Positions 3,368-63,424 of a stretch of 64,000 nucleotides of DNA are shown one piece after another (positions within the stretch are counted from its first letter, which is position 1; each line of letters begins with the position of its first letter). The translations under genes were made by a program, and so were the position numbers. The stretch is taken from assembly GCF_015356755.1 (NCBI RefSeq), contig NZ_JADFCO010000065.1, forward strand, positions 186,001 to 250,000. The letters run 5' to 3'. Under the pieces are notes generated by a model. The model saw nothing but the letters and a program-made list of their open reading frames with translations, made no database searches and was not told the DNA's origin. The DNA comes from Nonlabens antarcticus (GTDB lineage Bacteria > Bacteroidota > Bacteroidia > Flavobacteriales > Flavobacteriaceae).

Positions 3368-4033
3368 ATGAAACTTTATCTCGTCCCAACGCCCATCGGC
3401 AATCTTGCAGATATGACCTACCGCGCCGTAGAGATCTTAAATTCGGTTGATTTGATACTTGCAGAGGACACGCGCACCAGTGGCAAACTCCTCCATCATT
3501 ATGAGATCAAAACGCCCATGCTTTCCTACCACATGCACAACGAGCACAAAATTTCTGACCATATCGTGACTAGGATAAAGGGTGGTGAAACCATGGCCTT
3601 AATTACAGATGCTGGAACTCCTGGTATCAGTGATCCTGGGTTTTTGCTTTCGCGAAAGCTGATTGCCGCAGGACTTCCAATAGAAAGTTTACCTGGTGCT
3701 ACTGCTTTTGTTCCTGCACTGGTGTGCTCCGGTTTGCCCTGTGATAAATTTGTTTTTGAGGGTTTCCTGTCGGTAAAAAAAGGCCGCCAAACCAGACTCA
3801 AAGAACTTGCCGAAGAATCCAGAACCATCATCTTCTACGAATCACCCCACAAACTCCTCAAAACCCTAGCCGACTTCCAAACCCATTACGGCGCAGACCG
3901 CCAGATTTCCATATCGCGTGAGATCACAAAAATGTTTGAAGAACATTATCGAGGCACTGTTACTGAAGCTTTGGAGTATTTCACAGAAAAGAAGCCTAAG
4001 GGAGAGTTTGTGCTGGTGCTTGCTGGCGCTTAA
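3368..4033 (+). CDS. rsmI: 16S rRNA (cytidine(1402)-2'-O)-methyltransferase
   Basis: 221 aa tetrapyrrole-methylase-fold enzyme using S-adenosylmethionine to methylate the ribose of C1402 in the decoding centre. The N-terminus LVPTPIGNLADMTYRAVEIL, then EDTRTSGKLL, TDAGTPGISDPG and LPGATAFVPAL are the RsmI signature blocks in order. The palindrome GCTTTCGCGAAAGC (3646-3659) encodes LSRK inside the conserved DPGFLL-RK-I region without obvious added residues. The gene stands alone between two toxin-antitoxin modules. Confidence 0.96.
   Translation: MKLYLVPTPIGNLADMTYRAVEILNSVDLILAEDTRTSGKLLHHYEIKTPMLSYHMHNEHKISDHIVTRIKGGETMALITDAGTPGISDPGFLLSRKLIAAGLPIESLPGATAFVPALVCSGLPCDKFVFEGFLSVKKGRQTRLKELAEESRTIIFYESPHKLLKTLADFQTHYGADRQISISREITKMFEEHYRGTVTEALEYFTEKKPKGEFVLVLAGA
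3646..3659. repeat. palindrome GCTTTCGCGAAAGC, in rsmI
   Basis: Perfect 14-bp core of the window-wide palindrome family; encodes LSRK in rsmI. Confidence 0.95.
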
Positions 4034-4038
4034 TAATT

Positions 4039-4055
4039 ATTACCAATTTGGTAAT
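4039..4055. promoter_or_regulatory. 17-bp perfect palindrome, likely HigA operator
   Basis: ATTACCAA-T-TTGGTAAT has 8-bp arms about a single central base. It lies 6 nt upstream of the -7 box of the second higBA module (4062-4069), where an autoregulatory HTH antitoxin dimer would block RNA polymerase. That it binds HigA is inference. Confidence 0.7.
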
Positions 4056-4061
4056 TAATAG

Positions 4062-4069
4062 TATCTTTG
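4062..4069 (+). promoter_or_regulatory. -7 promoter box of the second higBA module
   Basis: TATCTTTG fits TAnnTTTG and lies 15 nt before the TTG start of the toxin gene, next to the palindromic operator. Confidence 0.6.
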
Positions 4070-4084
4070 CGGTAAATAATTACT

Positions 4085-4378
4085 TTGAGAGTTATTGCCA
4101 AAAGTACTTTACGGAAATTCTGGGAAATTAATCCAGACAGCGAGCAACAATTGAAATCGTGGTATCAAGAAGCTTCAAAAGCTAATTGGGAAAACCCAAA
4201 TGAAGTTAAACTGAAGTACTCCTCGGCAAGTATCTTAAAAAATAATAGGGTCGTTTTCAATATTTGCGGTAATAAATATCGATTGATTGTCGACATTACT
4301 TATTTGAGAAAACAAGTTTTTATTCTGTTCATTGGTACTCATAATGAGTATGATAAAATTGATGCTAACACAATTTGA
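4085..4378 (+). CDS. higB: HigB-family toxin (HigB_toxin type)
   Basis: 97 aa. The sequence with RKFWEINPDSEQQLKSWYQEA at the N-terminus, here cited in part, and NKYRLIVDITYLRKQVFILF near the C-terminus is characteristic of the HigB_toxin family (RelE superfamily, mRNA interferases). The start is TTG: the only upstream in-frame codons before a stop at 4073-4075 are ATA, ATT and ACT, so TTG at 4085 is the best choice. The gene ends one base before the HigA ATG. This module is unrelated in sequence to the first HigB on the other side of rsmI. Confidence 0.92.
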   Translation: MRVIAKSTLRKFWEINPDSEQQLKSWYQEASKANWENPNEVKLKYSSASILKNNRVVFNICGNKYRLIVDITYLRKQVFILFIGTHNEYDKIDANTI

Positions 4379-4379
4379 T

Positions 4380-4739: not shown

Positions 4740-4754
4740 ATCCGCAAAATTTAA

Positions 4755-6605: not shown

Positions 6606-6631
6606 GCTATAAACGTCTAGTGTTGAAGCGG

Positions 6632-6639
6632 CAAAGGTA
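6632..6639 (-). promoter_or_regulatory. -7 promoter box of trhO
   Basis: Minus-strand TACCTTTG, a match to TAnnTTTG, 26 nt before the chosen trhO ATG; it supports the shorter start. Confidence 0.5.
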
Positions 6640-6711
6640 TCAAAAAGACGAAAGACCGCTGCGTTGCAAGAAACAAGAAGTAAAATAAATCTTTTCTTAT
6701 GGAGCAGTTTT

Positions 6712-6823: not shown

Positions 6824-6908
6824 AAATGAAACTCGAACTTTTATTTTACCGCTTTCGCAAAAGTAAAAACCTACAGTTCCAACCGTTAATAACCATTGCT
6901 TCATCCTA

Positions 6909-6939: not shown

Positions 6940-6954
6940 CGTAAAATAAATAAA

Positions 6955-7968: not shown

Positions 7969-7992
7969 AGCCAGCCTTTTGTAAATCTATTG

Positions 7993-9055: not shown

Positions 9056-9057
9056 TA

Positions 9058-10692: not shown

Positions 10693-11433
10693 TTACTGAT
10701 ATTTCAATAGATCGTTAAGAATGATGGTACGCACGCTTTCGCGAAAGCGGACTTTATCTCCAGGCAATTGCAACCCGGCAGTTTCCTGAATTTCATGTGT
10801 TCTAGCGCGCATTCTTCCCAAGGATCCATGAAAAAAAGCAAATGGCAACCTTTTTTTATTATCATAAAAACTGATGGGAACGACCGGTATCTGATGCTCA
10901 ATGGCAAGTCTAAATGCACCGTCCTTAAAGTTATCAAGTACAATTGATCTGTCGTCAGGGACACCTCCTTCTGGAAAAATACAGATGCCCACTCCAGCAT
11001 CCAGACGATCGCTAGCTCGCTTGAAAACAGCCTGGCGACTGTGAGCGTCGCTGCGATCCACGAGAATACAACTGCGCTTATAGAAAAAACCAAAAATGGG
11101 GATCTTTGCAAGGGAAGCCTTACCGACAAACACAAACGGATTCTTTGCGACGATCAACATCAACATGATGTCTAACATACTCGTGTGGTTTGCAACGAGC
11201 ATATAACTCTGCCCTTTTATCATTCCAGCGTCTCTATAAATAATAGGTTTCCAGCACATACCATATACAATGATATATGCCCAGATTTGAGCTACTTTAA
11301 AAAACTGAGGATAGGTTTTTTTAGAAATGGTAAAGACCGTTAAGAAAGGTGCCAAAACAATTATAGGAATGCCTATCAGTAGGTAAAACCACAATCTATA
11401 GAGTGGCATGAGAATAAATCGAGTCCATTTCAT
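10693..11433 (-). CDS. plsC: 1-acyl-sn-glycerol-3-phosphate acyltransferase
   Basis: 246 aa from ATG 11433. It acylates lysophosphatidate to phosphatidate in phospholipid synthesis at the inner membrane. An N-terminal hydrophobic helix (about 10-35) precedes the HX4D motif NHTSMLD (H83, D88), and FPEGGVPDD gives the second acyltransferase block. The C-terminus contains RFRES, coded by the palindrome at 10734-10749. The start is supported by a complete promoter (TTG-N19-TATTTTTG) 6 nt upstream; a longer in-frame start at 11469 would lie inside that promoter. Confidence 0.92.
   Translation of the reverse strand: MKWTRFILMPLYRLWFYLLIGIPIIVLAPFLTVFTISKKTYPQFFKVAQIWAYIIVYGMCWKPIIYRDAGMIKGQSYMLVANHTSMLDIMLMLIVAKNPFVFVGKASLAKIPIFGFFYKRSCILVDRSDAHSRQAVFKRASDRLDAGVGICIFPEGGVPDDRSIVLDNFKDGAFRLAIEHQIPVVPISFYDNKKRLPFAFFHGSLGRMRARTHEIQETAGLQLPGDKVRFRESVRTIILNDLLKYQ
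10734..10749. repeat. palindrome CGCTTTCGCGAAAGCG, in plsC
   Basis: Perfect 16-bp copy; read as RFRES near the C-terminus of plsC. Confidence 0.95.
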
Positions 11434-13658: not shown

Positions 13659-14296
13659 CAACCGAAGATAAACGGATTAGGATCAAGTATGATTTCAGAG
13701 TAGTTATTTAATTGATTTTCAGCAAGAACCCCTGGGAAATCTCCTTGGTAATTTTGCATGGTTGTCATGATTTGAAAGTGCAGGTGTGGTGAGTAACCAC
13801 CGTTTTCTAGGGGTGTTCCCAAGGTTGCAATTTTTTCGCTTTCGCGAAAGCGAACTCCCATTTCCCATCCCTGCATATCACATTTTGAAAGGTGTCCATA
13901 AAGACTGTATAGCTTCTTACCTTCAAAGTCATGCTCTAAAATTAAAGTAGGACCGTAATTTCCCGCATCACCATTGTCTGCAAATGAGTGGATTTTTCCA
14001 TCCATTAAAGCATGAATACTTGTTCCCGCTGGCGCCCACAAATCAGTCCCCATGTGTACATCTCTAACCTCACCATCTTGAAATCGAGTCGATCTGCGGT
14101 ACAAAGCGCGCTGTTCCTTAAATCCACCGTGAGCTATGAATTTACCATTCTTTGAGCGCTTCTCTTCTAAATACTTTTCAAAAGTCGGAATATTACTCAC
14201 GTCGTTTTCCTCCCAAAATGAATTGCTAACCGATAAATCTATAGAAAAATAATCAGCCGCTTTATACTGCGGATTTAATAAGGCTTTAAAAGTCAT
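13658..14296 (-). CDS. M23-family (LytM) metallopeptidase
   Basis: 212 aa, predicted murein endopeptidase or related zinc peptidase. Zinc ligands are visible in HMGTD (HxxxD) at about residue 81 and HLHFQ near 171; YGHLSKCDMQGW lies between. There is no clear signal peptide, unusual for a murein enzyme, so a cytoplasmic or indirectly exported location is possible. The 20-bp palindrome at 13835-13854 encodes VRFRESEK in the turn before IATLGTPLENGGY. Coupled to dprA by TGATG, suggesting an operon. Confidence 0.9.
   Translation of the reverse strand: MTFKALLNPQYKAADYFSIDLSVSNSFWEENDVSNIPTFEKYLEEKRSKNGKFIAHGGFKEQRALYRRSTRFQDGEVRDVHMGTDLWAPAGTSIHALMDGKIHSFADNGDAGNYGPTLILEHDFEGKKLYSLYGHLSKCDMQGWEMGVRFRESEKIATLGTPLENGGYSPHLHFQIMTTMQNYQGDFPGVLAENQLNNYSEIILDPNPFIFG
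13835..13854. repeat. palindrome copy extended to 20 bp, in M23 gene
   Basis: TTCGCTTTCGCGAAAGCGAA is fully self-complementary; read as RFRES in the peptidase. Confidence 0.95.
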
Positions 14297-16401: not shown

Positions 16402-17469
16402 CTATACCTCATCAAAATTAACCTTCACTTTTGCACTTGTTGGGCTAGCCTGACAGGTTAAGGTCAAACCATCAGAAACCTCATCATCTGTGAGAATGGC
16501 ATTTTTGCGCATTTTGACATCGCCTTCCTCAATAAATCCTACACAAGAACTGCAAATACCACCTTGACAAGAATAGGGCGCATCGATGTCATTTTTGAGC
16601 ATGACGTCTAGCATGGTTTCATCCCGACGCATGGTAAAGCTATGTTGCTCGTCATCTAGAATTACAGTTATCTCTGATAAATGACTGTCTTCTGTGATTT
16701 CTACCTCGCTATCTGCGGTGGTAAAAAGCTCGAATTTGATATTTTCTGCAGTAAGTAATTTCTTTTCGATCAAGTTATCCTTGACCATGTGGATCATTTC
16801 TTCAGGACCGCAGAGATATGCTTTTGCGAAACCTGACTGTCGTTCCTTGGCAGGCAGAGCGAACTCATCACAGTCTTGTTTCAAGAAAAAATTCAGATTT
16901 GATTTTGTAATCCTTCCAAATAACGCATCCTGACGCTCTTCCCTGCTGAAACAATATTTTAGGATCAATCGATCTTCATATTGATCTTTCAAATCATTGA
17001 GTTGCTCTAGATAAATAGTCTGGCTTTCTGTTTGATTGCCATAAAGCAATGCCACTCTATTTTCAGAATTGCTGTTCAACGCGGTTTTCAAAATAGACAT
17101 CATGGGAGTTATTCCACTACCCGCAGCTATCAATAGGAAATTCCCTGTTTCAGTTTTCTCATGGACAAAAAGTCCGTCTGGTGGTGCTACTTCTAGCACA
17201 TCACCCACTCGCAATTTCATGGCATAGTTTGAAAACACGCCTTTATCTACAGCCTTTACCACTACTTTCAAAGCATCGTCTGATGGAGCGCTGCTTATGG
17301 AATAAGCCCTGCGCAGGTCAGTGCCATCCACAGTGGCCTTTAACGTTAAATATTGTCCTGCAGTGAATGAAAAAGCTTCATTAAGATCTTCTGGGATCTC
17401 AAAGACAATTTCCACAGCTCGTGGTGTAACTTTAGTGACTTGTTTTATGGAAAGGGAATGAAAGATCAT
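16402..17469 (-). CDS. PaaE-like ferredoxin-NADP reductase with C-terminal 2Fe-2S domain
   Basis: 355 aa flavoprotein moving electrons between NAD(P)H and a 2Fe-2S centre. FAD-binding RAYSISSAPSD is at about residue 54, NAD(P)-binding AAGSGITPMMSIL near 115, and the C-terminal ferredoxin domain has C301, C306, C309 and C339 (CQGGICSSC plus LTCQ). The domain order matches PaaE of phenylacetyl-CoA epoxidase, but no paaABCD genes are nearby, so it may serve another oxygenase or desaturase. A -7 box TACTTTTG lies at 17489-17496. Confidence 0.92.
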   Translation of the reverse strand: MIFHSLSIKQVTKVTPRAVEIVFEIPEDLNEAFSFTAGQYLTLKATVDGTDLRRAYSISSAPSDDALKVVVKAVDKGVFSNYAMKLRVGDVLEVAPPDGLFVHEKTETGNFLLIAAGSGITPMMSILKTALNSNSENRVALLYGNQTESQTIYLEQLNDLKDQYEDRLILKYCFSREERQDALFGRITKSNLNFFLKQDCDEFALPAKERQSGFAKAYLCGPEEMIHMVKDNLIEKKLLTAENIKFELFTTADSEVEITEDSHLSEITVILDDEQHSFTMRRDETMLDVMLKNDIDAPYSCQGGICSSCVGFIEEGDVKMRKNAILTDDEVSDGLTLTCQASPTSAKVKVNFDEV

Positions 17470-20475: not shown

Positions 20476-23097
20476 TTGAAATACATTTCTTCCTATACGA
20501 TTCTGATTACCTGCATATTGCTAGTTTTTGCTAGCTGCAGTCGTAAAAGTGATTCCTTTATATCGCGCAACCTTCATGCAATAGGCACAGAATATAATGT
20601 CCTATATAATGGAAATCTAGCTCTAGAAGCAGGCCTTGAAAACATTGAAGCAAATTATGGCGATAACTATTGGGACATTCTTCCTGTAGAACGTCTGGCT
20701 GTAAAGGACGAAATACGCATTAGCACTGATGATCAAACAGATCCCAACTTCAAACGCGCAGAGGAAAAGGCCGTAAAAGCGGTGCAGAAACACAGCATGC
20801 AAATTGATGGCGAGGAGGTGAACCCACAGATTGATGAAGCTTATATGCTCCTGGGAAAAGCAAGGTATTATGATCAGCGGTTTATTCCCGCTCTAGAAGC
20901 TTTCAATTACATCCTACAATTCATGCCAGAATCGGATAACATTCGGGTGGCAAAAATCTGGCGTGAGAAAACCAACATGCGTTTAGAAAGCAATGAGATC
21001 GCCATTGAAAATCTTCTAGACCTGATTACAAAAGACAGTCTTGATATCAATCGCGAAGAATTGATTCTTGCTAACGCCACGCTGGCACAAGCTTATTTAA
21101 ACATTCAAAAGACCGATAGCGCCTTGATCTACATGAGTCGCGCTGCCCAAAAAACAAAAGACCGCTCCACAGAGGGGCGCTATAAATTTATCGCGGGCCA
21201 GCTTTTTGCCCGGGAAGGACAAAAAGTTAGCGCTATTGTCCACTTTGACCAGGTTATTGAACTCCATCGTAAAATACCGCGCAATTATTATATCAATGCT
21301 TTTATTGAAAAGATCAAGTTGCGAGACACCATTCAAGAAGGCGACGATGAGTTACTTGTCATCCTTGATAAACTGGAAGAGGATCGTGAAAACAGACCTT
21401 GGCTGGATCTGATTAATTATAGAAAAGCTATATATCTGGAGTCCGTGGATAGCGTGGATGGAGCGATTGCCTATTACAATAAATCCTTAAAAGCAGGTGA
21501 TCAGGATTTATTCCTACAAGGAAATACTTATGATGCACTAGGTCGCATTAGTTTTGATGATGCTCGGTTTGAAACAGCTGGAAAGTATTTTGACAGTGCT
21601 TCCACAAAATATTTGAACAAGTCTAGAGAGCAGCGATCTGTTTTGAAAAAACGAGAAAACCTAGCTGACATTATTCTGTATGAAAACAACCGCCGCAGCG
21701 CTGACAGTATTTTATCTGTGATTGCTATGAGTGACGATCAACGGGCTAATTATTACAACGTTTACATCAATAAGCTTAAAGAACGTGAAGCACAACTAGC
21801 AGAACAAGCTGAAATTACAGAAGCAAATCTTGCCCAGCAAAAAACAGCTCTTTCGACCATTAAAACTAACAATAACCTTAATAACAATAGATTAGGACCA
21901 CCAGGAGCGCCTGTTGATAATGCTGGTTTCTCTGGAGATGACAATGGCGCGGTGTTTTATTTCTACGTTCCCGCTACTGTAGCTCGTGGGAAATTACAAT
22001 TCAGATCGGTTTGGGGTGGTCGCCCACTCGAGGATAACTGGAGGTTATCCAGCACTAGCTCTGGGCTAATTGATCAGGCTACAGAAAACCAGGTCACTGC
22101 TATTGAAAACAATGGAACGGCGCCAGAATATCTGGCATCCTATTACATTGATCAACTGCCACAAGGAGATATAGCCCTAGACAGCATTGCAGACTCCCGG
22201 GATTTTGCATATTATCAACTGGGCGTTCTTTACAAGGAGAAATTCAAGCGCAAGGATCTTGCTATCGATCGCTTTGAGACCTTGTTGACCTATGAGCCTG
22301 AGGAAAAGTTATTGTTACCTACTTTATATAACCTGTATTTAATGGGTCGCGATGGGAGTGATAACAATACCGCTTTCGCGAAAGCGGAACAATACAAATC
22401 CACCATCATATCAAAATATCCTAACACGAGATATGCGCAAATCTTGCAGAATCCCGAAAGTGCACTAGACAATACCGGCAGCCCAGAAGGAATTTACAAT
22501 GGCATTTTTAAGGAATATGAGCAAGGAAATTATGCAACAGTCATCACACAAACCGAAGAGCAGATCATCAGATTCAACGGTGATCCCATTGTTCCAAAAC
22601 TAGAGCTCTTAAAAACCTATGCCACTGGAAGGTTGTATGGTTTCAAGGCCTATAAAGAAGGTCTTGATTTTGTAGCATTTAATTATCCCAGTAGTGCAAC
22701 CGGTCAAGAAGCCGCAATTCTAGCTGCCGAAGCTGAAAAATTGAGGATTCCAGAAACCTTTGTTCCAGAAGAGGGCCTAGACAGTTTCAAAATTTTATAT
22801 CAAGTCGCAGCATCAGACACCACAACACAAGAGAAACTTGCTGCACAGTTAAAGCAAGGCCTGACTGCTGCTGGCGAACAGCTCACCTATTCCATAGACG
22901 TTTATTCACCTAAATTTTCATTGATAGTTATTCATGGTTTCAATAGCAAGGAGCGTTCTAAAGAAGTAGCAAACTATCTTGAAAAGTCTAAAAATAAAAT
23001 TGGCTTACCAAAAATCTCTGTTTCTATCGCCACAGATAATTACAAAATCGTCCAGGTTTATAAAAGCCTAGACGATTATAAGAAACAGTCTCAATAA
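20476..23097 (+). CDS. sprE: SprE/PorW-like type IX secretion lipoprotein with TPR repeats
   Basis: 873 aa. MKYISSYTILITCILLVFASC gives a lipobox with Cys at 21. The N-terminal NLHAIGTEYNVLYNGNLALE is the characteristic SprE/PorW start, followed by many tetratricopeptide-type helices (about 100-450) and a second helical region (about 560-760). SprE is needed for gliding and type IX secretion in Flavobacteriia. The start is TTG at 20476: an in-frame stop at 20455 leaves no ATG. A palindrome (22370-22387) encodes AFAKA. Bactofilin follows by 10 nt. Confidence 0.9.
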   Translation: MKYISSYTILITCILLVFASCSRKSDSFISRNLHAIGTEYNVLYNGNLALEAGLENIEANYGDNYWDILPVERLAVKDEIRISTDDQTDPNFKRAEEKAVKAVQKHSMQIDGEEVNPQIDEAYMLLGKARYYDQRFIPALEAFNYILQFMPESDNIRVAKIWREKTNMRLESNEIAIENLLDLITKDSLDINREELILANATLAQAYLNIQKTDSALIYMSRAAQKTKDRSTEGRYKFIAGQLFAREGQKVSAIVHFDQVIELHRKIPRNYYINAFIEKIKLRDTIQEGDDELLVILDKLEEDRENRPWLDLINYRKAIYLESVDSVDGAIAYYNKSLKAGDQDLFLQGNTYDALGRISFDDARFETAGKYFDSASTKYLNKSREQRSVLKKRENLADIILYENNRRSADSILSVIAMSDDQRANYYNVYINKLKEREAQLAEQAEITEANLAQQKTALSTIKTNNNLNNNRLGPPGAPVDNAGFSGDDNGAVFYFYVPATVARGKLQFRSVWGGRPLEDNWRLSSTSSGLIDQATENQVTAIENNGTAPEYLASYYIDQLPQGDIALDSIADSRDFAYYQLGVLYKEKFKRKDLAIDRFETLLTYEPEEKLLLPTLYNLYLMGRDGSDNNTAFAKAEQYKSTIISKYPNTRYAQILQNPESALDNTGSPEGIYNGIFKEYEQGNYATVITQTEEQIIRFNGDPIVPKLELLKTYATGRLYGFKAYKEGLDFVAFNYPSSATGQEAAILAAEAEKLRIPETFVPEEGLDSFKILYQVAASDTTTQEKLAAQLKQGLTAAGEQLTYSIDVYSPKFSLIVIHGFNSKERSKEVANYLEKSKNKIGLPKISVSIATDNYKIVQVYKSLDDYKKQSQ
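22370..22387. repeat. palindrome copy extended to 18 bp, in sprE-like gene
   Basis: CCGCTTTCGCGAAAGCGG; read as AFAKA between two helical repeats. Confidence 0.95.
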
Positions 23098-26776: not shown

Positions 26777-26792
26777 CGCTTTCGCGAAAGCG
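26777..26792. repeat. palindrome CGCTTTCGCGAAAGCG, intergenic in the atp operon
   Basis: Perfect 16-bp copy between atpH and atpA. Confidence 0.95.
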
Positions 26793-26894: not shown

Positions 26895-28469
26895 ATGGCA
26901 GAAGTAAATCCAGCAGAAGTATCTGCAATACTTAAGCAACAATTATCAGGTTTTGACGCTACAGCATCCCTTGATGAAGTAGGAACAGTGCTTACCGTAG
27001 GTGATGGTATCGCACGTGTTTATGGTCTTTCAAACGCACAGTATGGAGAACTAGTTTCTTTTGCAAGCGGGATGGAAGGCATCGTTTTGAACCTTGAAGA
27101 AGACAATGTAGGTGTGGTACTTTTAGGCCCCTCTGTTGAAATCAAAGAAGGTGACACGGTAAAGCGTACAGAGCGTATTGCTTCCCTTAAAGTAGGTGAA
27201 GGAATTGTAGGTCGTGTAGTAAACACACTGGGTTTACCTATCGATGGTAAAGGACCTATAGAGGGCGATCTTTATGAAATGCCTCTAGAGCGTAAGGCAC
27301 CTGGAGTTATCTATCGTGAGCCTGTAACTGAGCCTATGCAGACTGGTATCAAAGCGATTGACGCAATGATTCCCGTAGGTCGTGGCCAGCGTGAATTGGT
27401 TATCGGTGACCGTCAGACTGGAAAGTCAACAGTTTGTATCGATACAATCATCAACCAGAAAGAATTTTACGATGCTGGCGAGCCAGTTTATTGTATTTAT
27501 GTTGCGATAGGTCAAAAGGCTTCTACTGTTGCATTGATTGCTAACGTACTTGAAGAAGCAGGCGCGCTTGCTTATACTACTATCGTTGCTGCAAATGCAT
27601 CAGATCCTGCACCTATGCAGGTATATGCACCATTTGCTGGAGCAGCTATTGGCGAGTACTTCCGTGATACAGGTCGTCCTGCACTGATTGTTTTTGATGA
27701 TTTGTCAAAACAAGCAGTTGCATATCGTGAGGTTTCCCTGTTGCTACGTCGTCCTCCAGGGCGTGAAGCATATCCAGGTGACGTTTTCTTCCTTCACTCA
27801 AGGTTGTTAGAACGCGCGGCTAAAGTTATCAATGATGACGCGATCGCGGCAACGATGAATGACCTGCCAGAAAGTTTGAAACCCATCGTTAAAGGTGGTG
27901 GATCGCTAACGGCACTTCCTATTATTGAAACTCAGGCTGGTGATGTATCTGCTTATATCCCAACGAACGTAATTTCTATTACAGACGGTCAGATTTTCCT
28001 AGATGGTGACTTGTTCAACGCAGGTGTTCGTCCAGCGATAAATGTGGGAATTTCAGTTTCTCGTGTGGGTGGTAACGCACAGATCAAATCGATGAAAAAA
28101 GTTGCGGGTACTTTAAAGCTGGATCAAGCGGCTTTCCGTGAATTGGAAGCTTTCGCGAAATTTGGTTCAGATCTAGATGCTGCTACACTAAGCGTTATTG
28201 AAAAAGGAAAAAGAAACGTAGAGATCTTAAAGCAAGCTCAAAACAGCCCTTATCCTGTAGAAAACCAAATTGCAATTATCTATGCAGGTTCTAAAAACCT
28301 TCTTAGAAACGTGCCGGTAGATAAAGTAAAAGAATTTGAAAGAGACTATCTAGAACTCCTTAATGCTAAGCATAGAGAAACTTTAGATTTATTGAAAGCT
28401 GGTAAATTGACTGATGAAGTTATTGATACGTTGACTTCAGTAGCGAAAGATTTATCTTCCCGTTATTAA
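26895..28469 (+). CDS. atpA: F0F1 ATP synthase subunit alpha
   Basis: 524 aa non-catalytic nucleotide-binding subunit of the F1 head. Walker [10 protein letters not shown] is near residue 172, Walker B region [16 protein letters not shown] near 262, and the alpha signature [15 protein letters not shown] follows. The segment [13 protein letters not shown] contains a half-match to the palindrome (GCTTTCGCGAAA at 28149-28160) but is conserved in AtpA generally. The beta and epsilon genes are absent here, as is usual in Bacteroidetes where they form another operon. Confidence 0.98.
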
Positions 28470-31663: not shown

Positions 31664-31679
31664 CGCTTTCGCAAAAGCG
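31664..31679. repeat. palindrome copy with one mismatch, intergenic
   Basis: CGCTTTCGCAAAAGCG: one change (G to A) from the consensus. Confidence 0.75.
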
Positions 31680-40304: not shown

Positions 40305-40318
40305 GCTTTCGCAAAAGC
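40305..40318. repeat. palindrome core with one mismatch, intergenic
   Basis: GCTTTCGCAAAAGC, one change (G to A) from the core. Confidence 0.7.
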
Positions 40319-43162: not shown

Positions 43163-44089
43163 ATGTTACAGCTAGATGGTATTAATTTCGCTTTCGCGAA
43201 AGCGGAAACTCTCACAAACATTTCCTTTCAACTAGATCAAGGGTCTCACGCAGCCATCATGGGCGAGAGCGGCTGTGGAAAAAGCACCTTGCTTAACGTG
43301 ATTTATGGCCTTCTACAAGCGCAAAAAGGAACCGTTGCATGGAATGGTGACGAGTTGCTGGGCGCAGATCATCACCTAATTCCAGGTCATCCCATGATGA
43401 AATATGTGCCACAGGAATTTAATTTGATGCCGTTTACAACAGTAACAGAAAATGTGGGCGAGCATCTTTCCATACAAATCGAGCACCGACTGGACCGAAT
43501 TATGGAATTATTAGAAATCGTGGAAATGCAGGATTTTGCAGATCGCAAAGTAAAAACATTGTCGGGCGGTCAGAAACAACGTGTCGCCATTGCCAAAGCA
43601 TTAGCTCAAGAACCTCAACTTTTACTGCTGGACGAGCCATTCTCACACGTGGATAATTTCCGTAAAAACAGTTTACGCAGGCGCTTATTCCATTATCTCA
43701 AAATGCAAAATATAAGCTGTCTTATGGCCACCCACGATAGTGGCGACGTACTTTCCTTTACCGATGAGACTATCGTGGTGCAAGCTGGTAAAATCATCGA
43801 TCACAGAGAAACTAAAACACTTTTTCAAGATCCACAGACTCCATATATAGCGTCGCTTTTTGATGATGTCAATGAAATTCCGGCGAGCTGGTTTGATACT
43901 AAAAAAGACTTGTTGTTATACCCCTATCAGATGGGAATTTTAAATTCTGGGTTGGAAGCTGTAGTTATTAATTCTTATTTCAAGGGTGATCATTTCTTGA
44001 TTTCCTGTGGTTGTAAAAAGAAAAACATTTTGATCAAATCAGCAACGGATGTAAAAGCTGGAAAGCGTATTTATGTTAATTTAGTTTAA
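43163..44089 (+). CDS. lone ABC transporter ATP-binding protein
   Basis: 308 aa. Walker A GESGCGKSTL near residue 34, signature LSGGQKQRVAIAKAL near 133, Walker B LLLLDEPFSHVD near 153, switch His in ATHDSGDVLSF. The C-terminal ~75 residues after the ATPase domain (LLLYPYQMGILNSGLEAVVI) look like a TOBE-type regulatory domain, as in PotA/FbpC importers. No permease gene is adjacent. A palindrome (43189-43204) encodes AFAKA within the first 15 residues (INFAFAKAETL), between the first two strands. Confidence 0.93.
   Translation: MLQLDGINFAFAKAETLTNISFQLDQGSHAAIMGESGCGKSTLLNVIYGLLQAQKGTVAWNGDELLGADHHLIPGHPMMKYVPQEFNLMPFTTVTENVGEHLSIQIEHRLDRIMELLEIVEMQDFADRKVKTLSGGQKQRVAIAKALAQEPQLLLLDEPFSHVDNFRKNSLRRRLFHYLKMQNISCLMATHDSGDVLSFTDETIVVQAGKIIDHRETKTLFQDPQTPYIASLFDDVNEIPASWFDTKKDLLLYPYQMGILNSGLEAVVINSYFKGDHFLISCGCKKKNILIKSATDVKAGKRIYVNLV
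43189..43204. repeat. palindrome CGCTTTCGCGAAAGCG, in ABC ATPase gene
   Basis: Perfect 16-bp copy; read as AFAKA near the N-terminus. Confidence 0.95.
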
Positions 44090-45936: not shown

Positions 45937-45952
45937 CGCTTTCGCGAAAGCG
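45937..45952. repeat. palindrome, intergenic between accB and accC (20 bp with flanks)
   Basis: CGCTTTCGCGAAAGCG; self-complementarity extends to TT...AA at 45935-45954, the same 20-mer as in the M23 gene. Confidence 0.95.
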
Positions 45953-52250: not shown

Positions 52251-53108
52251 CTAATTAAAAATCTGATTGAAAGTGAAAGTCTTATCATGCCTTACACCTT
52301 TGTCTGTATGTTTTACAGTAATTATTTCATGGTTGGGATCATGCTCTAGGATCAAGTAATATCCATTCGTTGCTGCTTTATCAAGGAACTTCTCCTTTTC
52401 ATCCAGCGTTAATAATGGTCTAGTGTCATAGCCCATAACATAAGGCAATGGCACGTGACCGGCAGTAGGAAGCAAGTCTGCCATGTAAACGAAAGTCTTT
52501 CCATTCATGCTGAAATGTGGTATCATCATTTTTTCGGTGTGACCATTGACGAAGAGAATATCAAAATCCATTTCATTTGCCTTATGATAATCAGCTTTTT
52601 GATCGATAAAATTAAGCTGACCACTTTCCTTAATGGGCTGGATATTTTCTGATAAAAAACTTGCTTTCTCTCTATCGTTAGGATCTGTTGCCCAGTTCCA
52701 ATGGTTTGAATTTGAAAAGAATTTCGCTTTCGCGAAAGCGGGCTCAAAATAATCTCCCCTACTACTTTTCTGGATTACACCCCCACAATGATCAAAATGT
52801 AAATGCGTCAAAAAAACATCTGTAATATCATCACGTGAAAATCCTAGCTTTTTGAGAGAGCTGTCCAGATCGTATTTATGATCCATATAATAATAACCGA
52901 AGAATTTCTCTGACTGCTTCTTCCCCATTCCAGAATCGATTAGGGTCAATCGATCGCCGTTTTCCACTAAAAGGCAGCGTGCTGCCATATCAATCATATT
53001 ATTAGAATCTGCGGGATTTGTACGTTGCCACAAACTTTTAGGTACAACGCCAAACATGGCGCCACCATCCAACTTAAAATTTCCAGCTTCTACAGGGTGA
53101 ATTTTCAT
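52251..53108 (-). CDS. metallo-beta-lactamase-fold hydrolase
   Basis: 285 aa from ATG 53108. The zinc motif HLHFDHCGG (HxHxDH) is near residue 109, with a further His in VNGHTEKMMIPHFS and a C-terminal LEHDPNHE. Sequence style is that of the AHL-lactonase-like branch, but lactonase activity is not implied. No signal peptide. A palindrome (52725-52740) encodes AFAKA after DYFEP. Probably co-transcribed with the S8 protease gene. Confidence 0.9.
   Translation of the reverse strand: MKIHPVEAGNFKLDGGAMFGVVPKSLWQRTNPADSNNMIDMAARCLLVENGDRLTLIDSGMGKKQSEKFFGYYYMDHKYDLDSSLKKLGFSRDDITDVFLTHLHFDHCGGVIQKSSRGDYFEPAFAKAKFFSNSNHWNWATDPNDREKASFLSENIQPIKESGQLNFIDQKADYHKANEMDFDILFVNGHTEKMMIPHFSMNGKTFVYMADLLPTAGHVPLPYVMGYDTRPLLTLDEKEKFLDKAATNGYYLILEHDPNHEIITVKHTDKGVRHDKTFTFNQIFN
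52725..52740. repeat. palindrome CGCTTTCGCGAAAGCG, in metallo-hydrolase gene
   Basis: Perfect 16-bp copy; read as AFAKA. Confidence 0.95.
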
Positions 53109-54011
53109 AGGTCTCGCAAAATACAAAATCGGCTAGATTGTCGTTTGCTGTTCTTGTAATATTATGAGTTGTTTAATATTCTAAAGGTTATAAAGCATAC
53201 TTGTACCATAAATATCTAGTCCAGAAAGCACAGGTTCATCTTTACACTGCATTCTTCCAGGCCATAAGGTTGATCTTTCTCTATTTTTAAAAACTTGATG
53301 GTTTACGTCAAATTTATCCAGACTGGTAGTTCCTTAAGAAAAAACGTAATCCTAGGTTATAGCGAGCTTTTATATTACGTCTTGATATACTCATTTACGC
53401 CTATCATTAATAGGTATGGCAAATCATTACAGCCTAAGATCGATGAATTTTATGGTTTCCACAATACTCGCATCAAATATGCCTGGCGAAACTTTCAACT
53501 AATAGTCTATAATACTCTTTTCAAAAAATTAATAATTTGTTCCTCTGATTTTTTGGGTGTTTACAATAGTACCTAACATTATGATGAAACATTAAGAGCA
53601 AGAAAACTGTCATAAAAATGTTTTTGAGAATACAAAATCATGAAGTGCGTCGATAAATTGAAATACTCTGAATTGGGTAATTTTTTAATTTACATCAAAC
53701 ATAAGTTCTGTTCTTTATTTCATTATCTAACGACACATTCCTAAAAGATTATCTAGAAGGTAAACGGGTGAACAACCTATTTCAGTTATGTCGAGACGTG
53801 CCAAGACTGCTACTCCTTAAAAACAAATTTTAAGATGTCAATTATTAACAATCTGTATAATTTATTTATATTTTCAAACTTCCAGCTCTTCTGAGATTAC
53901 AACCGTTTATCCAATAGTGTTGATAGGGTGCGAGTTTACACGCTTTCGCGAAAGCGAACTCTTTAAATTTCTTATAAAAAAGGTTGTATTTTCACAGCTT
54001 ATAAAAAATTT
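53109..54011. other. 903-nt stretch without a supported gene
   Basis: Very AT-rich, with no convincing gene. One frame of 93 codons (53295-53576, starting at TTG or ATG 53298) has no recognisable family, and its composition matches translated intergenic DNA. A palindrome copy is at 53941-53956, just before the antiporter gene. Confidence 0.7.
53941..53956. repeat. palindrome CGCTTTCGCGAAAGCG, upstream of antiporter
   Basis: Perfect 16-bp copy, 55 nt before the start codon at 54012. Confidence 0.95.
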
Positions 54012-55980: not shown

Positions 55981-56034
55981 AGGCATGAGGCATGAGGCAT
56001 GAGGCATGAGGCATGAGGCATGAGGCATGAGGCA
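55981..56034. repeat. heptamer tandem repeat (AGGCATG)x7.7
   Basis: Seven perfect AGGCATG units followed by a partial AGGCA; no interruptions. Confidence 0.97.
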
Positions 56035-58203: not shown

Positions 58204-60618
58204 ATGAGAATTTTTACATTACTGTTCCTGCTTTTTTCCTTTAGTATGTATTCGCAAAAAACGATTCAAGGAACAGTTACTGACGACGGCAAGCAACCTT
58301 TGGCCTATGCCACAGCCCTACTTTTTAAAATGCCAGACAGTACATTTTACAAAGGCACCACCACAGATGAAAAAGGCAGTTTCAAAATGACCGGCGTAGA
58401 CGCTGGAATCTATACTCTTGCTATAAGTTCTGTGGGATATGTTACGCTTTCGCGAAAGCTGACTCTCGACAATTCCATAACACTAAACGAACTACAATTA
58501 TCAACCGCCACTGAATCGCTGGAAGGAATTACCGTAACAGCACGGCGTCCCACCATTGAAAAGCGTCCCGACCGTTTGATCTTTAATGTGGAAAATAGTT
58601 CGCTAAGTACTGGAAACACGGCAGATATTCTCAAGAAGACTCCTGGCGTTTTTGAAATGAACGGCAGTTATATGGTGCAGAATTCTCCCGCCGTGATCTA
58701 TATCAACGATAAACGGGTCTACATCACAGCAGATGAACTAAATGCGCTGTTGACCGGTTATAGCGCAGACAACATCAAAAGTGTTGAGGTAATTACAAAC
58801 CCGTCTGCAAACTATGATGCAGAGGGCGCTGCAGTTATCAACATCAACACCAGCAAGGGTATATCGCTGGGTTACAAAGGATCCATCAATGGCAGTTATT
58901 CCATCGATGAACTGGCGAAGTACCAGATAGGAACTTCCCAGTTTTACAAGAACGACTGGATCAATATTTATGCAAACTATAATTACAACCCGCGCAGGGA
59001 TTTGAAGCTGGACGAGGCTCAAGTGGGTTTTTTCAACCCAGATGGCACGCGCAAATCCCGTTGGTTTACAGATTTTGAAAAAACAACCAAAAGCGCCGCC
59101 CATAATTTGAATACAGTGATTGATTTTACGTTAAATGACAGCAATTCTATAAGTGTTTCTGGAAATTATTCTGCTAACAATAATCAGGATGTGCGTACTG
59201 ATGTCCAAACGTTAATTTTACCCAATGGTGCTACCAACTCTAATGGATTCAATACAAATTCAGACCTGGGAATTGACCGGACCACAGGATTTGTAAATGG
59301 TCAGTATCAACATACGTTCAATGAAGGATCTGGTAAATTATCACTGGAAGGAAACTACATCTTTACAGATCGCGACAAGACCCAGGATTTATCAAGTATC
59401 TTTTTTGACACCGCTGGCATTACTACAGGAACTAATAGTTTTTTTACAGATGCCATTCAGAATATTGATATCTACGTGGGCAAACTGGATTATGAAAACA
59501 CACTGGGAAATTATATTGTAAAAACAGGTGCCAAATTCTCTGATGTTTCCTCCACCAGCTCGCTGGACTTTTTTGACACCGATTCTGGAACCAGAGATTT
59601 CAACACCGCACTTTCTGATGAATTTTTATACGATGAAAACATCTATGCCGCTTACCTTCAGCTGGATCGCGATTGGGATAAATGGGCCATCGCCGCAGGC
59701 CTGCGCGCAGAACAAACTGATGTAGAAGGCGACAGCCGTTCTTTAGGCCAGGTCAACACCCAAAATTATTTTGAGTTATTCCCAAACATTGCAGTCACAA
59801 ACCAAGTCAATGACAACAACTCACTAACATTAAGCTACAGAAGATCTATTGATAGGCCACGTTACGAGAGCTTGAATCCGTTTTCTTATTTTATTAATGA
59901 TAATAATGTAAACACGGGAAATCCAAATTTACAGCCTGCTTTCACTAACAAAATCAACCTCAACTGGAACATAAAGAACCAGTATTTCTTTGACGCTTAT
60001 TACACGAGAACGGATAATGCGCTGGCGGTTTTACCATTTCAAAATAACCAGACTAACTTCGTGAATTCTCAAAATTTCAACATGGATTATGAGCTTCAAT
60101 ACAGTCTGGATTTTATGACAATACAAAATCTAGGCGGTACCATTTTTACGCAGATTCAATCCAGCCTTTTTTACATGGAGAACGAATTCACCGCGATACA
60201 ATCTGGTGGTGTGAAACAAAAAAATGATGTAACCGGATTTTTGCTAACTACGTTCAACCGAATTCCCTTGTCAAAGGATCAAACATTTAGTCTTGATGTG
60301 CAAATGAGTTATCTCACCAATATTCTATTTGGCTCCTATGAATTTAAAAACCAGTTTGAATCAAGCATAGGGTTTTACAAAAGCATTTGGAACAATCGGG
60401 CCATCATTACACTCAATTATAACGATATATTCTTGAGCCAGAATCAGCCTTTAAAATCACGTTATCTCAATCAGGATAACGAATATTTAGCATTACCAGA
60501 AACAAACACTATTGAATTAGGTTTTACCTACAAGTTCGGAAACTTTAGGTTGCGTAACAATGAGGTAGCTGCTCCAGAAGATCAAAAACGTACAGAATCT
60601 AAAGGTGTTGGATTTTAA
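58204..60618 (+). CDS. TonB-type outer-membrane beta-barrel protein with carboxypeptidase-like N-domain
   Basis: 804 aa. A signal peptide (FLLFSFSMYSQ) leads to a CarboxypepD_reg-like domain (about 20-100, IQGTVTDDGKQPLAYATALL), a plug domain (ADILKKTPGVFEMNG, VEVITNPSANYDAEGAAVIN) and a large C-terminal barrel (about 240-804) of the OMP_b-brl_3 type, ending in a Gly-Phe. It differs from classical SusC in size and has no SusD partner. A palindrome (58446-58459) encodes LSRK in the N-domain. Ligand unknown. Confidence 0.92.
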   Translation: MRIFTLLFLLFSFSMYSQKTIQGTVTDDGKQPLAYATALLFKMPDSTFYKGTTTDEKGSFKMTGVDAGIYTLAISSVGYVTLSRKLTLDNSITLNELQLSTATESLEGITVTARRPTIEKRPDRLIFNVENSSLSTGNTADILKKTPGVFEMNGSYMVQNSPAVIYINDKRVYITADELNALLTGYSADNIKSVEVITNPSANYDAEGAAVININTSKGISLGYKGSINGSYSIDELAKYQIGTSQFYKNDWINIYANYNYNPRRDLKLDEAQVGFFNPDGTRKSRWFTDFEKTTKSAAHNLNTVIDFTLNDSNSISVSGNYSANNNQDVRTDVQTLILPNGATNSNGFNTNSDLGIDRTTGFVNGQYQHTFNEGSGKLSLEGNYIFTDRDKTQDLSSIFFDTAGITTGTNSFFTDAIQNIDIYVGKLDYENTLGNYIVKTGAKFSDVSSTSSLDFFDTDSGTRDFNTALSDEFLYDENIYAAYLQLDRDWDKWAIAAGLRAEQTDVEGDSRSLGQVNTQNYFELFPNIAVTNQVNDNNSLTLSYRRSIDRPRYESLNPFSYFINDNNVNTGNPNLQPAFTNKINLNWNIKNQYFFDAYYTRTDNALAVLPFQNNQTNFVNSQNFNMDYELQYSLDFMTIQNLGGTIFTQIQSSLFYMENEFTAIQSGGVKQKNDVTGFLLTTFNRIPLSKDQTFSLDVQMSYLTNILFGSYEFKNQFESSIGFYKSIWNNRAIITLNYNDIFLSQNQPLKSRYLNQDNEYLALPETNTIELGFTYKFGNFRLRNNEVAAPEDQKRTESKGVGF
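58446..58459. repeat. palindrome GCTTTCGCGAAAGC, in barrel-protein gene
   Basis: Perfect 14-bp core; read as LSRK in the carboxypeptidase-like domain. Confidence 0.95.
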
Positions 60619-60653
60619 GATTGAGTAGATTGAAATAGTAAAAGCCAGTGTGA

Positions 60654-61082
60654 ATGAATACAAAAAACCTAAAACCGATAACCGTTCAAACCACCATTAA
60701 ATCAGGAATTGAAAAGGTGTGGAATTTCTGGATAAAACCGGAACATATTGTCAATTGGAATTTTGCCACCGATGAATGGCGCTGTCCAAAAGCTGAAAAT
60801 GACATGATTCCCAACGGAAAATTCTCTTGGAGAATGGAAGCCAAAGACGGCAGCATGGGGTTTGATTTTGCAGGAGTCTATGAGAAAGTAGTACCAAAAG
60901 AATTGATTACGTATCGATTGCCCGACGGCAGGTTAGTGTCCATTGACTTTGAGGAAAACGAAGATGAAGTAACCATTCGAGAAACCTTTGATGCCGAAGG
61001 AACCAATACCGACGAACAACAACGCGCGGGTTGGCAGGCGATTTTGGAGAATTTTAAAAAGTATGTAGAGGTAGATAAATAG
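60654..61082 (+). CDS. SRPBCC (AHSA1-like) domain protein
   Basis: 142 aa small START/AHSA1-like fold with a hydrophobic cavity. The start TVQTTIKSGIEKVWNFWIKP, the GKFSWRMEAKDGSMGFDFAG strand pair and the C-terminal helix QQRAGWQAILENFKKYVE are typical of the AHSA1 branch in Bacteroidetes. It follows the barrel gene by 35 nt on the same strand. Ligand and function unknown. Confidence 0.92.
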   Translation: MNTKNLKPITVQTTIKSGIEKVWNFWIKPEHIVNWNFATDEWRCPKAENDMIPNGKFSWRMEAKDGSMGFDFAGVYEKVVPKELITYRLPDGRLVSIDFEENEDEVTIRETFDAEGTNTDEQQRAGWQAILENFKKYVEVDK

Positions 61083-61195
61083 ACTCCAAAAATCTAAGCA
61101 CATCATTTGTCAATCGTTTGTTACCAGTTTGAAGTACGTTAATACCCAACCTCAGTTCCTGTTAAACTCGGTTATTTCTTAGCGCCACGCGTTTT

Positions 61196-61225
61196 TTGGT
61201 CAAACCTGATTTAACCATATCTTTG
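61196..61225 (+). promoter_or_regulatory. dus promoter
   Basis: TTG (61196-61198), 19-nt spacer, TATCTTTG (61218-61225). The ATG is 4 nt further, so transcription should begin at or near the start codon. Confidence 0.7.
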
Positions 61226-61229
61226 TCCC

Positions 61230-62222
61230 ATGGTTAAAATTGCCGACATAGAACTACCCGATTTCCCGTTGTTGCTTGCACCTATGGAAGATGTAAGCGA
61301 TCCACCTTTCCGTACGCTGTGTAAGGAAAATGGCGCTGACGTCGTTTTTACGGAGTTTATTTCCAGTGAGGGCTTGATTCGTGATGCGGCAAAAAGCAGG
61401 ATGAAACTTGACATTTATGAAACCGAGCGTCCTGTCGGGATCCAGATTTTTGGGGCCAATATGGAATCCATGTTACAATCTGTAGAGATTGTTGAACGCA
61501 CTAAACCAGATATTATCGATATCAACTTCGGTTGTCCAGTGAAGAAAGTGGTTTCTAAAGGAGCTGGCGCTGGGATTTTAAAAGACATTGACCTCATGGT
61601 TCAGCTTTCTGCAGCCATGGTCAAGCATACCCATCTACCGATTACTGTAAAAACTAGATTAGGTTGGGATCATGATTCCATTAAGATTGTAGAAGTGGCA
61701 GAGCGGTTGCAAGATGTAGGCATTAAAGCTATTAGCATCCACGGTCGCACGCGAGCACAGATGTATAAAGGTGATGCCGACTGGAAACCTATCGCAGATG
61801 TGAAAAATAACCCACGTATGCATATTCCTGTTTTTGGTAACGGTGACGTGAATACTCCAGAGAAAGCGGTAGAAATGCGCGACAAATATGGACTCGACGG
61901 CGCAATGATAGGCCGTGCAAGCATCGGTTATCCGTGGTTTTTTAGAGAAGTGAAACACTTTTTTAAAACAGGTGAACATTTAGCACCACCCACAATGCAA
62001 GAACGTGTGGAAGTTGCCAGACGCCATCTTGAAATGGCAATTGCCTGGAAAGGAGAAAAATTGGGCGTTTTTGAAACCCGTAGACATTATACCAATTATT
62101 TCAAAGGAATTCCAGACTTTAAGGAGCATCGCATGAAAATGGTAACTAGCGACGATAGCGCCGCTGTATTTGCTGCTTTTGAAGAAGTCTTAGAAAATTT
62201 TGCTGATTACAGCTTTGCCTGA
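61230..62222 (+). CDS. dusB: tRNA-dihydrouridine synthase
   Basis: 330 aa flavin enzyme reducing uridines in tRNA D-loops. The N-terminal barrel has LAPMEDVSDPPFR, the active Cys is in DINFGCPVKKVV, and TVKTRLGWD and SIHGRTRAQMYKG contact FMN and phosphate. GAMIGRASIGYPWFF and the C-terminal helical domain follow. DusB is the nearest subgroup, but this is not certain. Its end overlaps the convergent permease gene by 16 nt. Confidence 0.94.
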   Translation: MVKIADIELPDFPLLLAPMEDVSDPPFRTLCKENGADVVFTEFISSEGLIRDAAKSRMKLDIYETERPVGIQIFGANMESMLQSVEIVERTKPDIIDINFGCPVKKVVSKGAGAGILKDIDLMVQLSAAMVKHTHLPITVKTRLGWDHDSIKIVEVAERLQDVGIKAISIHGRTRAQMYKGDADWKPIADVKNNPRMHIPVFGNGDVNTPEKAVEMRDKYGLDGAMIGRASIGYPWFFREVKHFFKTGEHLAPPTMQERVEVARRHLEMAIAWKGEKLGVFETRRHYTNYFKGIPDFKEHRMKMVTSDDSAAVFAAFEEVLENFADYSFA

Positions 62223-63424
62223 GAAAGCAATCTGTCGTTGATCCTGCGACTTCCTATATAACTAGCAATAATTCCCAATACCACAATGGTAGAAAGTGCA
62301 ATCAGCACATTGAGCCAGTCCATCGCAAACGGATAAGGAATTCCCGGCGCGATATAAACCCAATTAAAAGTCATCTGTCCATAGACAAAAGCCATTCCTA
62401 TCAACAATCCTAAGATGCCGCCTGAAATGGTCATTAAAGATCCTTGAAGGAAGAATATCCTGCGCAGTTGGCCGACTTCGGCACCTAGATCGAGTAAAGT
62501 TTTGAGATTTTTCTTCTTGTCAAGAATCATCATAATAATGGATCCCACGACATTGAATAATGCAATAATCAGTACCAAAGTGAATATCAAGTACACCGCT
62601 AGATTTTCAGAATTGAGCATTTTATAGAGTGCACCATTCAATTGCAATTTGTTCTTGATCTCAATATCCACGTCAAACAAAGCCTCGATTTCTTTGCGTA
62701 CGTCATCTTCCATATTGGGATCTGTAAGCTTTATTTCTAGTGCAGACGCCGTAGTGTCACTATAATTGAGCAAGGTTCTGGCAGCGCTCAATCGCATGAA
62801 TATATATTTGTTATCTAACTCTTCATTGACTGAGAACATTCCGGTAGCAATAGCATCTAACGTACTAAACGAGCGGCTCAAGTTCATAACATTGATCGCA
62901 TTAGTTCCAGGTCTGGGAACCATTATTTGCATGAAGGCACTGTAATCATTTACAGATATAGATAAATCATCAGCTATTCCTGCGCCTATAATTACTTGTG
63001 GATCATTATCTGTCAACCAGCTGCCGTAAATCAGGATCGAGTCCGGCTCAATGATCTGATCATAATTTTCTGGAACTCCTTTAATGTAAGCGATATCATT
63101 TTTTTCAGAATAGCTCAAGAATGCCTTTTCTTCTATAACCTCAGAAACTACGGCAATTCCAGTAATGTTCTCGAGAGCCCGCTTTCGCGAAAGCGGAATT
63201 TCCAGCGTTTTACCCTGCACGGCAGTTACTTGCAAATCGGGATCAAAATAACCGGTAAATCCGGTGCTGAATTCTTTCAAACCACTGAATCCGGAAAGCA
63301 CGATAAATAGTGCCGCGGTTCCCACGATGGTGATGATAAAACTGAGGATATTGATGATGTTAATGGCGTTCTTGCCATTTTTTGAGACCAGATACCGTCG
63401 CGCTATGTAAAACGAAAAGTTCAC
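62207..63424 (-). CDS. LolC/E-type FtsX-family ABC permease
   Basis: 405 aa: one N-terminal helix (about 25-48), a large extracytoplasmic domain (about 50-275) and three further helices (about 280-300, 325-350, 375-395), the layout of LolC/E lipoprotein-release permeases. N-terminus YIARRYLVSKNGKNAINIIN fits. A palindrome (63179-63196) encodes PLSRKR. It follows rbfA by 1 nt. The ATPase partner is not in the window. Confidence 0.9.
   Translation of the reverse strand: MNFSFYIARRYLVSKNGKNAINIINILSFIITIVGTAALFIVLSGFSGLKEFSTGFTGYFDPDLQVTAVQGKTLEIPLSRKRALENITGIAVVSEVIEEKAFLSYSEKNDIAYIKGVPENYDQIIEPDSILIYGSWLTDNDPQVIIGAGIADDLSISVNDYSAFMQIMVPRPGTNAINVMNLSRSFSTLDAIATGMFSVNEELDNKYIFMRLSAARTLLNYSDTTASALEIKLTDPNMEDDVRKEIEALFDVDIEIKNKLQLNGALYKMLNSENLAVYLIFTLVLIIALFNVVGSIIMMILDKKKNLKTLLDLGAEVGQLRRIFFLQGSLMTISGGILGLLIGMAFVYGQMTFNWVYIAPGIPYPFAMDWLNVLIALSTIVVLGIIASYIGSRRINDRLLSQAKL
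63179..63196. repeat. palindrome copy extended to 18 bp, in LolC/E-type gene
   Basis: CCGCTTTCGCGAAAGCGG; read as PLSRKR in the extracytoplasmic domain. Confidence 0.95.

Follow-up and report, generated by a model that had tools for sequence, protein, structure and literature searches.

A maintained, near-regularly spaced 14-bp palindrome in the genomes of Nonlabens

Why should the same 14-bp palindrome, GCTTTCGCGAAAGC, recur every few kilobases along a flavobacterial chromosome, mostly inside genes? The stretch of DNA analysed here (the window) is a 64-kb segment of Nonlabens antarcticus (NZ_JADFCO010000065.1, 186,001-250,000; genome G000), in which an exact word scan finds 14 perfect copies of the palindrome, 12 of them extending to a 16-mer. 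We conclude with near certainty that GCTTTCGCGAAAGC is a strongly maintained, evenly spaced, clade-specific DNA site distributed genome-wide in Nonlabens, with further occurrences in genomes sampled from two other genera.

Chance is rejected as the origin of the copies, both in the window and in the genome. A third-order Markov model predicts 0.00015 perfect copies per window, while shuffling yields 0.19 perfect and near copies together, with none of 100 shuffles reaching the 19 observed. The 3,270,668 bases of G000 (66 contigs) contain 611 copies and none of the reversed word used as a control. An earlier note on this DNA had judged the count to be far above chance, and the genome-wide count bears this out. 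All 23 Nonlabens genomes searched carry between 288 and 857 copies each. In a SprE/PorW search, the best named matches are Nonlabens sequences, N. tegetincola at 56% and an uncultured Nonlabens at 68%, and the genus mate G410 has a SprE identical to that of the latter. At least one copy occurs in 80 of the 397 genomes (237 genera) of a Flavobacteriaceae sample; outside Nonlabens, however, only G206 (857 copies) and G190 (408), genomes of two other genera, exceed 19. A sample of 148 genomes from the phylum gave a match in 10, none with more than four copies except G000. Seventy-eight named SprE regions from other genera (1.65 Mb in total) all lack the word TTTCGCGAAA; the SprE gene itself holds one of the window's copies. 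In a 56-row SprE tree, all 15 motif-bearing rows fall on one side of a branch (Shimodaira-Hasegawa-like approximate likelihood ratio test, SH-aLRT, 97). From this tree a single origin of the motif is likely, with the reservation that the branches of G206 and G190 are long and join each other. These two genomes are richer in near copies, with 1281 and 732 words at no more than two mismatches against 857 and 408 perfect ones (reversed controls 21 and 48). The idea of similar palindromes in other genus groups is not borne out by the SprE neighbourhoods of eight of them, where the long ones found number at most about one per locus, as might be expected if they were orthologous.

Single sites are conserved beyond their surroundings. 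Between G397 and G404, which share 95.0% identity over 172 kb, all 53 G397 sites are identical (742/742 positions), compared with 95.6% identity in the 15-base flanks. Conversely, 53 of the 56 G404 sites are conserved in G397, the three losses comprising one point change and two inserts of another short palindrome. Across 15 pairs of 71-89% identity, which were chosen and overlap and are hence not independent, 177 of 217 site comparisons are perfect, whereas random 14-mers are perfect in 2-7% of cases (27.5% in the closest pair). Because the 11-base blastn seeds can come from the motif itself, these counts were restricted to alignments longer than 300 bases that include 60 query bases to either side of the site. 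Per-position identity is 91-100% in the core, 93% at -1, 88% at +15 and about 74% in the far flanks. Of the 12 motif-bearing SprE rows shown, 10, G206 and G190 among them, have the site in identical columns of the alignment, where it reads FAKA; L016 and L017 differ. SprE orthologues from species without the repeat, to which the earlier note had pointed as a check, lack these residues, FAKA being present in 0 of 10 outgroup rows. That note had also favoured replacement over insertion. Occupied and unoccupied sequences do align without gaps through the core at 3646, 13838 and 22372 against relatives, but elsewhere different short repeats have been inserted into the site. In the genus samples (1.31 Mb), copies with 0, 1, 2 and 3 mismatches number 294, 60, 28 and 61, and about 30 of the 61 can be put down to chance (10.25 per 450 kb, scaled up). 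Neutral decay of inserts would produce about equal mismatch classes, so a decaying mobile repeat is disfavoured.

The sites are also spaced more evenly than chance would place them, which, together with the extended skewed flanks described below, adds to what the earlier note reported. In two samples of the window's own genome (450 kb and 91 sites in all), the coefficient of variation (CV) of the gaps is 0.53 and 0.56, and each sample has a single gap below 1 kb, against expectations of 9.2 and 7.3. Pooling 11 samples (n=295) gives a CV of 0.54 and a gamma shape of 3.7, with 1.7% of gaps below 0.2 of the mean against 18% expected. The mean gap in Nonlabens samples is 3.5-4.9 kb. In two samples where the motif has a CV of 0.53 and 0.60, none of 2113 7- and 8-mers of similar count (1194, 191, 706 and 22; the words overlap one another) is equally regular. 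Near copies fill gaps in this lattice: one-mismatch copies (n=66) lie at a median of 0.50 mean gaps from perfect copies, compared with 0.26 for random points (p=8e-13; the spacing and near-copy p-values treat pooled related genomes as independent), and two-mismatch copies (n=35) at 0.44 compared with 0.26. Twenty 20-kb samples round the complete chromosome of G401 hold 2-9 copies each and 103 in total, the sample with two copies being half masked (9874/20000 N), and no gradient of density between origin and terminus was seen in these 20 samples.

The consensus is C-GCTTTCGCGAAAGC-G. Outside the core, position -1 favours C (0.89), -3 and -4 favour T, -5 favours A, and -7, -10, -12 and -13 again favour T. 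On each strand the 5' flank is poor in C and rich in G and T to about -25 to -30, with the mirror image on the 3' side, in genes and between genes alike; no such skew was seen around the control words TCGCGA, CGCG, GCGC, GAATTC and others. The changes in one-mismatch copies often fall in the outer bases. In the own-genome samples, 64 of 91 sites lie in open reading frames (ORFs), called by a simple length rule, and use all three frames (34, 14 and 16), while the 27 intergenic sites (30%) occupy about 13% of the DNA. Over a larger set of sites, convergent, divergent and tandem gaps hold 10, 16 and 56 intergenic sites (0.47, 0.68 and 0.75 per kb), with no preference for convergent or divergent gaps. 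Half sites outside the motif are weakly enriched, at 2-3 times expectation. Folding of every perfect window site but that at 37802 gave 13 z-scores between -3.08 and +0.76, 10 of them negative and two below -2. Pairing between left and right flanks is within chance in genes and slightly in excess at -2, -4 and -9 between genes. Because the dyad turns up on either strand, in any reading frame and outside genes too, and half sites are only weakly enriched, we infer that the double-stranded dyad is the unit, probably recognised as double-stranded DNA by a candidate dimeric protein.

The window illustrates this placement. All 14 starts given for perfect cores by the earlier note are exact, and its tally of ten cores within genes, read as AFAKA (5), LSRK (3) and RFRES (2), was recovered from the ORFs. 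Its three near copies were said to carry one change each, which is right for 31665 and 40305; the copy at 6851 has two mismatches, and two further near copies, at 16820 and 28149, were overlooked. The 19 copies are as follows.

3646-3659: perfect core in a TP_methylase gene (RsmI according to the earlier note), read LLSRKL
6851-6864: near copy, two mismatches
10735-10748: perfect core in an acyltransferase gene, minus strand, read RFRES
13838-13851: perfect core in an M23 peptidase gene, minus strand, read RFRES
16820-16833: near copy, two mismatches, with an insert; the aligned place holds a perfect copy in G397, G401 and L016
19074-19087: perfect core, intergenic
22372-22385: perfect core in the PorW/SprE gene, read AFAKAE; G206 and G190, of two other genera, hold a perfect copy at the corresponding position
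26778-26791: perfect core upstream of atpA, intergenic under the ORF rule applied
28149-28162: near copy, two mismatches, within atpA
31665-31678: near copy, one mismatch
34247-34260: perfect core in an alanine racemase gene, read AFAKA
37802-37815: perfect core in a gene with a Por_Secre_tail sorting domain, read AFAKA, inside a perfect 36-bp palindrome (37791-37826)
40305-40318: near copy, one mismatch
43190-43203: perfect core in an ABC-transporter ATPase gene, read AFAKA
45938-45951: perfect core, intergenic
52726-52739: perfect core in a metallo-beta-lactamase-fold gene, minus strand, read AFAKA
53942-53955: perfect core, intergenic
58446-58459: perfect core in an outer-membrane barrel protein gene, read TLSRKL
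63181-63194: perfect core in an FtsX/MacB-type permease gene, minus strand, read PLSRKR

Foreign and newly acquired DNA was compared with this background. In one genome pair, DNA not common to close relatives holds 4 copies in 27.7 kb, compared with 53 in the 172 kb that is shared. A 53-kb element resembling an integrative and conjugative element (ICE) in G000 (contig C58, 45600-98868; L308-L310), lying between two sites, has no perfect copy and two copies with two mismatches. It encodes a set of the bacteriophage exclusion (BREX) type, comprising BrxC, PglZ and an Eco57I-type methylase, together with conjugation proteins. The cultured Nonlabens phages P12024S and P12024L (L246, L247), presumably lytic and with no integrase named in their annotation, contain no copy within two mismatches. 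GGCC is absent from both, CCGG is strongly avoided and CGCG is avoided less, at 0.21-0.22 of expectation, a pattern of word avoidance that suggests restriction pressure.

What, then, maintains the site? The most likely role, which we advance tentatively and by analogy, is that of a self-recognition site for DNA exchange comparable to an uptake sequence. DNA bearing the site would be preferentially taken up and recombined, lost sites would thereby be restored, and sites would accumulate in a shared genome until they settled at about one per exchanged fragment (the mean gaps being 3.5-4.9 kb). One site per fragment is proposed to account for the regular spacing. The DNA uptake sequences (DUS) of Neisseria and the uptake signal sequences (USS) of Haemophilus are described, in PMC2397512 and PMC7811141, as highly conserved, scarce in new DNA, under-represented in coding sequence and fairly evenly spaced. 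An uptake role fits the distribution of GCTTTCGCGAAAGC best. Its conservation, scarcity in new DNA, intergenic excess and even spacing match those reports; from the same papers, the likeness extends to hundreds of copies, conservation above that of the flanks and flanks that contribute. Like uptake sequences, GCTTTCGCGAAAGC is an over-represented exact word kept against decay and is rare in newly acquired DNA (one ICE-like element, one genome pair). Riemerella columbina, of the same family, prefers its own DNA in transformation according to PMC7965970, which lists k-mers and establishes no uptake sequence. The presence of ComEC in all 14 genomes searched is also in keeping with uptake.

Several observations weigh against this account, beginning with the maintenance of the sites. 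In the DNA 30-60 bases away from the core, identity stands at about 74%, much as in whole pairs, and permissive location was examined through the intergenic excess. Sites are kept less well in some lineages (4/11 for G000 against G410, 9/16 for G399 against G405, 9/13 for G405 against G406). An earlier count made without the 60-base flank rule found 0/4 window sites kept in L017 (the organism of G410) and 1/2 in L016. Known uptake sequences are directional and shorter, with a core of about 9-12 bp, whereas GCTTTCGCGAAAGC is a 14-bp dyad. They occur about once per kb, compared with once per 4-9 kb for GCTTTCGCGAAAGC. Nonlabens is not known to be competent. ComEC occurs equally in genomes without the motif. 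A T2SSE ATPase (PF00437, covering PilB, PilT, GspE and VirB11; the one uptake-machine family searched) is not found over the cut-off in any of 14 genomes, five of them motif-bearing, which give sub-cut-off matches only. In Neisseria and Haemophilus, the DUS and USS systems depend on type IV pili, as stated in PMC7965970. Finally, unlike the two cultured phages, some IMG/VR contigs (L118, L140, L162 and L123 among them) that encode portal, terminase or head proteins or transposases contain copies; such viral contigs are not obviously predicted by uptake alone, and some phages appear to have adopted the motif.

Nearly as likely is a role in chromosome architecture, a possibility that we nevertheless regard as doubtful. 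A candidate nucleoid protein would bind the dyads as a dimer, and selection would keep one site per ~3.5-5 kb with no preference for origin or terminus. The perfect dyad with its extended flanks, a regular spacing in which close pairs are few and near copies fall in the gaps, the even density round G401 (2-9 per 20 kb) and the retention of the SprE site across genera all point this way. On the other side, the search for a factor found none, no second short ParB being present in the five motif-bearing genomes searched, both G397 and G404 retain a canonical parS core, and the resident 53-kb element lacks a perfect site. In its fullest form, which on the sequence evidence is possible though again doubtful, GCTTTCGCGAAAGC would be a new kind of genome-wide DNA mark, a chromosome ruler or lattice formed by a 14-bp dyad with ~30-bp strand-skewed arms, set at near-regular intervals of a few kb and read by a dedicated dimeric protein.

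It is improbable that the motif is a by-product of the kind proposed for the highly iterated palindrome 1 (HIP1), in which a methylase acting inside the palindrome biases mismatch repair and so creates and keeps the sequence. The earlier note's remark that the motif resembles HIP1 in style and differs in sequence is borne out. The one-mismatch copies often differ in outer bases, and avoidance of the central CGCG in both phages (0.21-0.22) would be in keeping with a methylated core, although GGCC and CCGG are avoided more. The HIP1 model also predicts saturation at a set spacing, according to PMC4390886. Against this by-product reading, the usual targets of methylases are shorter than 14 bp. 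Against it, too, and against the note's proposal of a methylation site in the form of a C5 target, a C5-methylase (PF00145) is absent from G000, G402 and G190 and present in the other four of the seven motif-bearing genomes in which this class, as distinct from N4C and N6A, was searched for. Outside the motif, TCGCGA occurs at Markov expectation in four of five host samples (G399 has 1 against 5.3 expected).

Less probable still is a palindromic, two-way Chi-like site at which an AddAB-type nuclease would switch to recombination, with GT-rich 5' flanks favouring RecA loading. RecA prefers GT-rich DNA, an AddB-type PDDEXK nuclease is encoded, the flanks have the expected geometry, and two phages and the ICE-like element lack perfect sites, as some phages lack Chi. 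The density of E. coli Chi (GCTGGTGG) is similar. However, the AddB-like protein occurs in 14/14 genomes, at similar length with or without the motif, and known Chi sites are 5-8 nt long. Measured for comparison, the 61 E. coli Chi sites that have full flanks within 250 kb of K-12 are neither evenly spaced (CV 1.30) nor flank-skewed, whereas GCTTTCGCGAAAGC is both.

A parS or Noc site with a dedicated ParB is rejected. Such sites are dyads of the TTTC..GAAA type, a likeness to GCTTTCGCGAAAGC, but the ParB family uses few sites and not hundreds. No second short, Noc-like ParB was found in the five motif-bearing genomes searched: TIGR00180 gives one match each in four of the five, and two extra matches in G000 lie in frames of ~600 residues. 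The parS core is moreover retained in G397 and G404. The Chi-like, ParB/Noc and C5-methylase readings were thus each tested and are not supported, and none of the ParB paralogue, C5-methylase, AddB, ComEC and T2SSE separates motif-bearing from motif-free genomes.

Very improbable, lastly, is a selfish or mobile micro-repeat (the earlier note's final suggestion) or an RNA hairpin or terminator: an interspersed palindrome, two of 13 folded window sites with z < -2 and a slight intergenic pairing excess at -2, -4 and -9 speak for it, as does the half GCGAAAGC, a very stable DNA mini-hairpin according to PMC6177439, but site conservation, even spacing and the short decay series (294/60/28/61) contradict a spreading repeat. 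Repetitive extragenic palindromes (REP), bacterial interspersed mosaic elements (BIME) or another mobile repeat are rejected because insertional spread with decaying copies was not met, a small tail of near copies notwithstanding. A hairpin as the unit is rejected on the mostly unremarkable folding, half sites enriched only 2-3-fold and flank pairing no greater than chance in genes. An intrinsic terminator is likewise rejected, only 27/91 sites being intergenic, with no excess in convergent gaps and a 3' flank rich in A and C instead of a T run.

GCTTTCGCGAAAGC can be grouped loosely with other iterated genome words such as HIP1 and DUS/USS, from which it differs in length, symmetry, regularity or flanks. 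What such words do has been settled for uptake sequences and for a small number of others. HIP1 (GCGATCGC) is an 8-bp word of cyanobacteria, whereas GCTTTCGCGAAAGC spans 14-16 bp, has another sequence and belongs to another phylum, and three of seven motif-bearing genomes lack a C5-methylase. HIP1 and the alternate HIPs, as described in PMC4390886, share with it a highly repeated exact palindrome widespread in one group and an unsettled function, and HIP1 was still unexplained as of that source. In the literature searched, from which most subscription papers fall outside coverage, GCTTTCGCGAAAGC was not found, TTTCGCGAAA occurs in papers of which none is on this topic by title, and queries on a Nonlabens palindrome or repeat, on highly iterated palindromes in Bacteroidetes and on uptake terms returned no report of the motif. 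New here are the regular spacing, the site-level conservation, the near copies in gaps, the extended flank and the absence of perfect copies from two phages and the BREX element. The Nonlabens clade offers a clean case of an iterated word: a long exact palindrome with almost no chance background, regular, conserved at single sites and with motif-free relatives available. As an uptake sequence, if that is what it is, it would have no predecessor from Bacteroidota within the literature searched, and it would be a palindromic one; were it architectural, it would provide a countable lattice for studies of chromosome folding.

In some Nonlabens genomes a short palindromic repeat, approximately GCCTGCCGGwCAGGC, splits the 14-bp site near its centre. 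Such split sites lie at ~3957 and ~11157 of L251 and ~12386 of L254 (all G397), and in G406 opposite ~13171 of L290 (G405). A REP-like element may thus target the dyad preferentially.

Copies in other genera are often clustered. In 239 kb taken from seven such genomes (13 stretches), 31 copies are perfect, 10 have one mismatch and 7 have two, and the flanks are skewed as in Nonlabens. The motif may thus tag DNA possibly derived from the Nonlabens clade, in islands of which one carries metal-efflux genes: the G087 region, of which 20 proteins were searched, includes RteC and metal-efflux proteins. Five genomes from other genera (G087, G101, G078, G215 and G160) have copies paired at a distance of exactly 933 bases, which looks like the spread of one DNA segment. 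Within the window itself, a different repeat is present at 55981-56032, where the 7-base unit AGGCATG stands in tandem in at least seven units.

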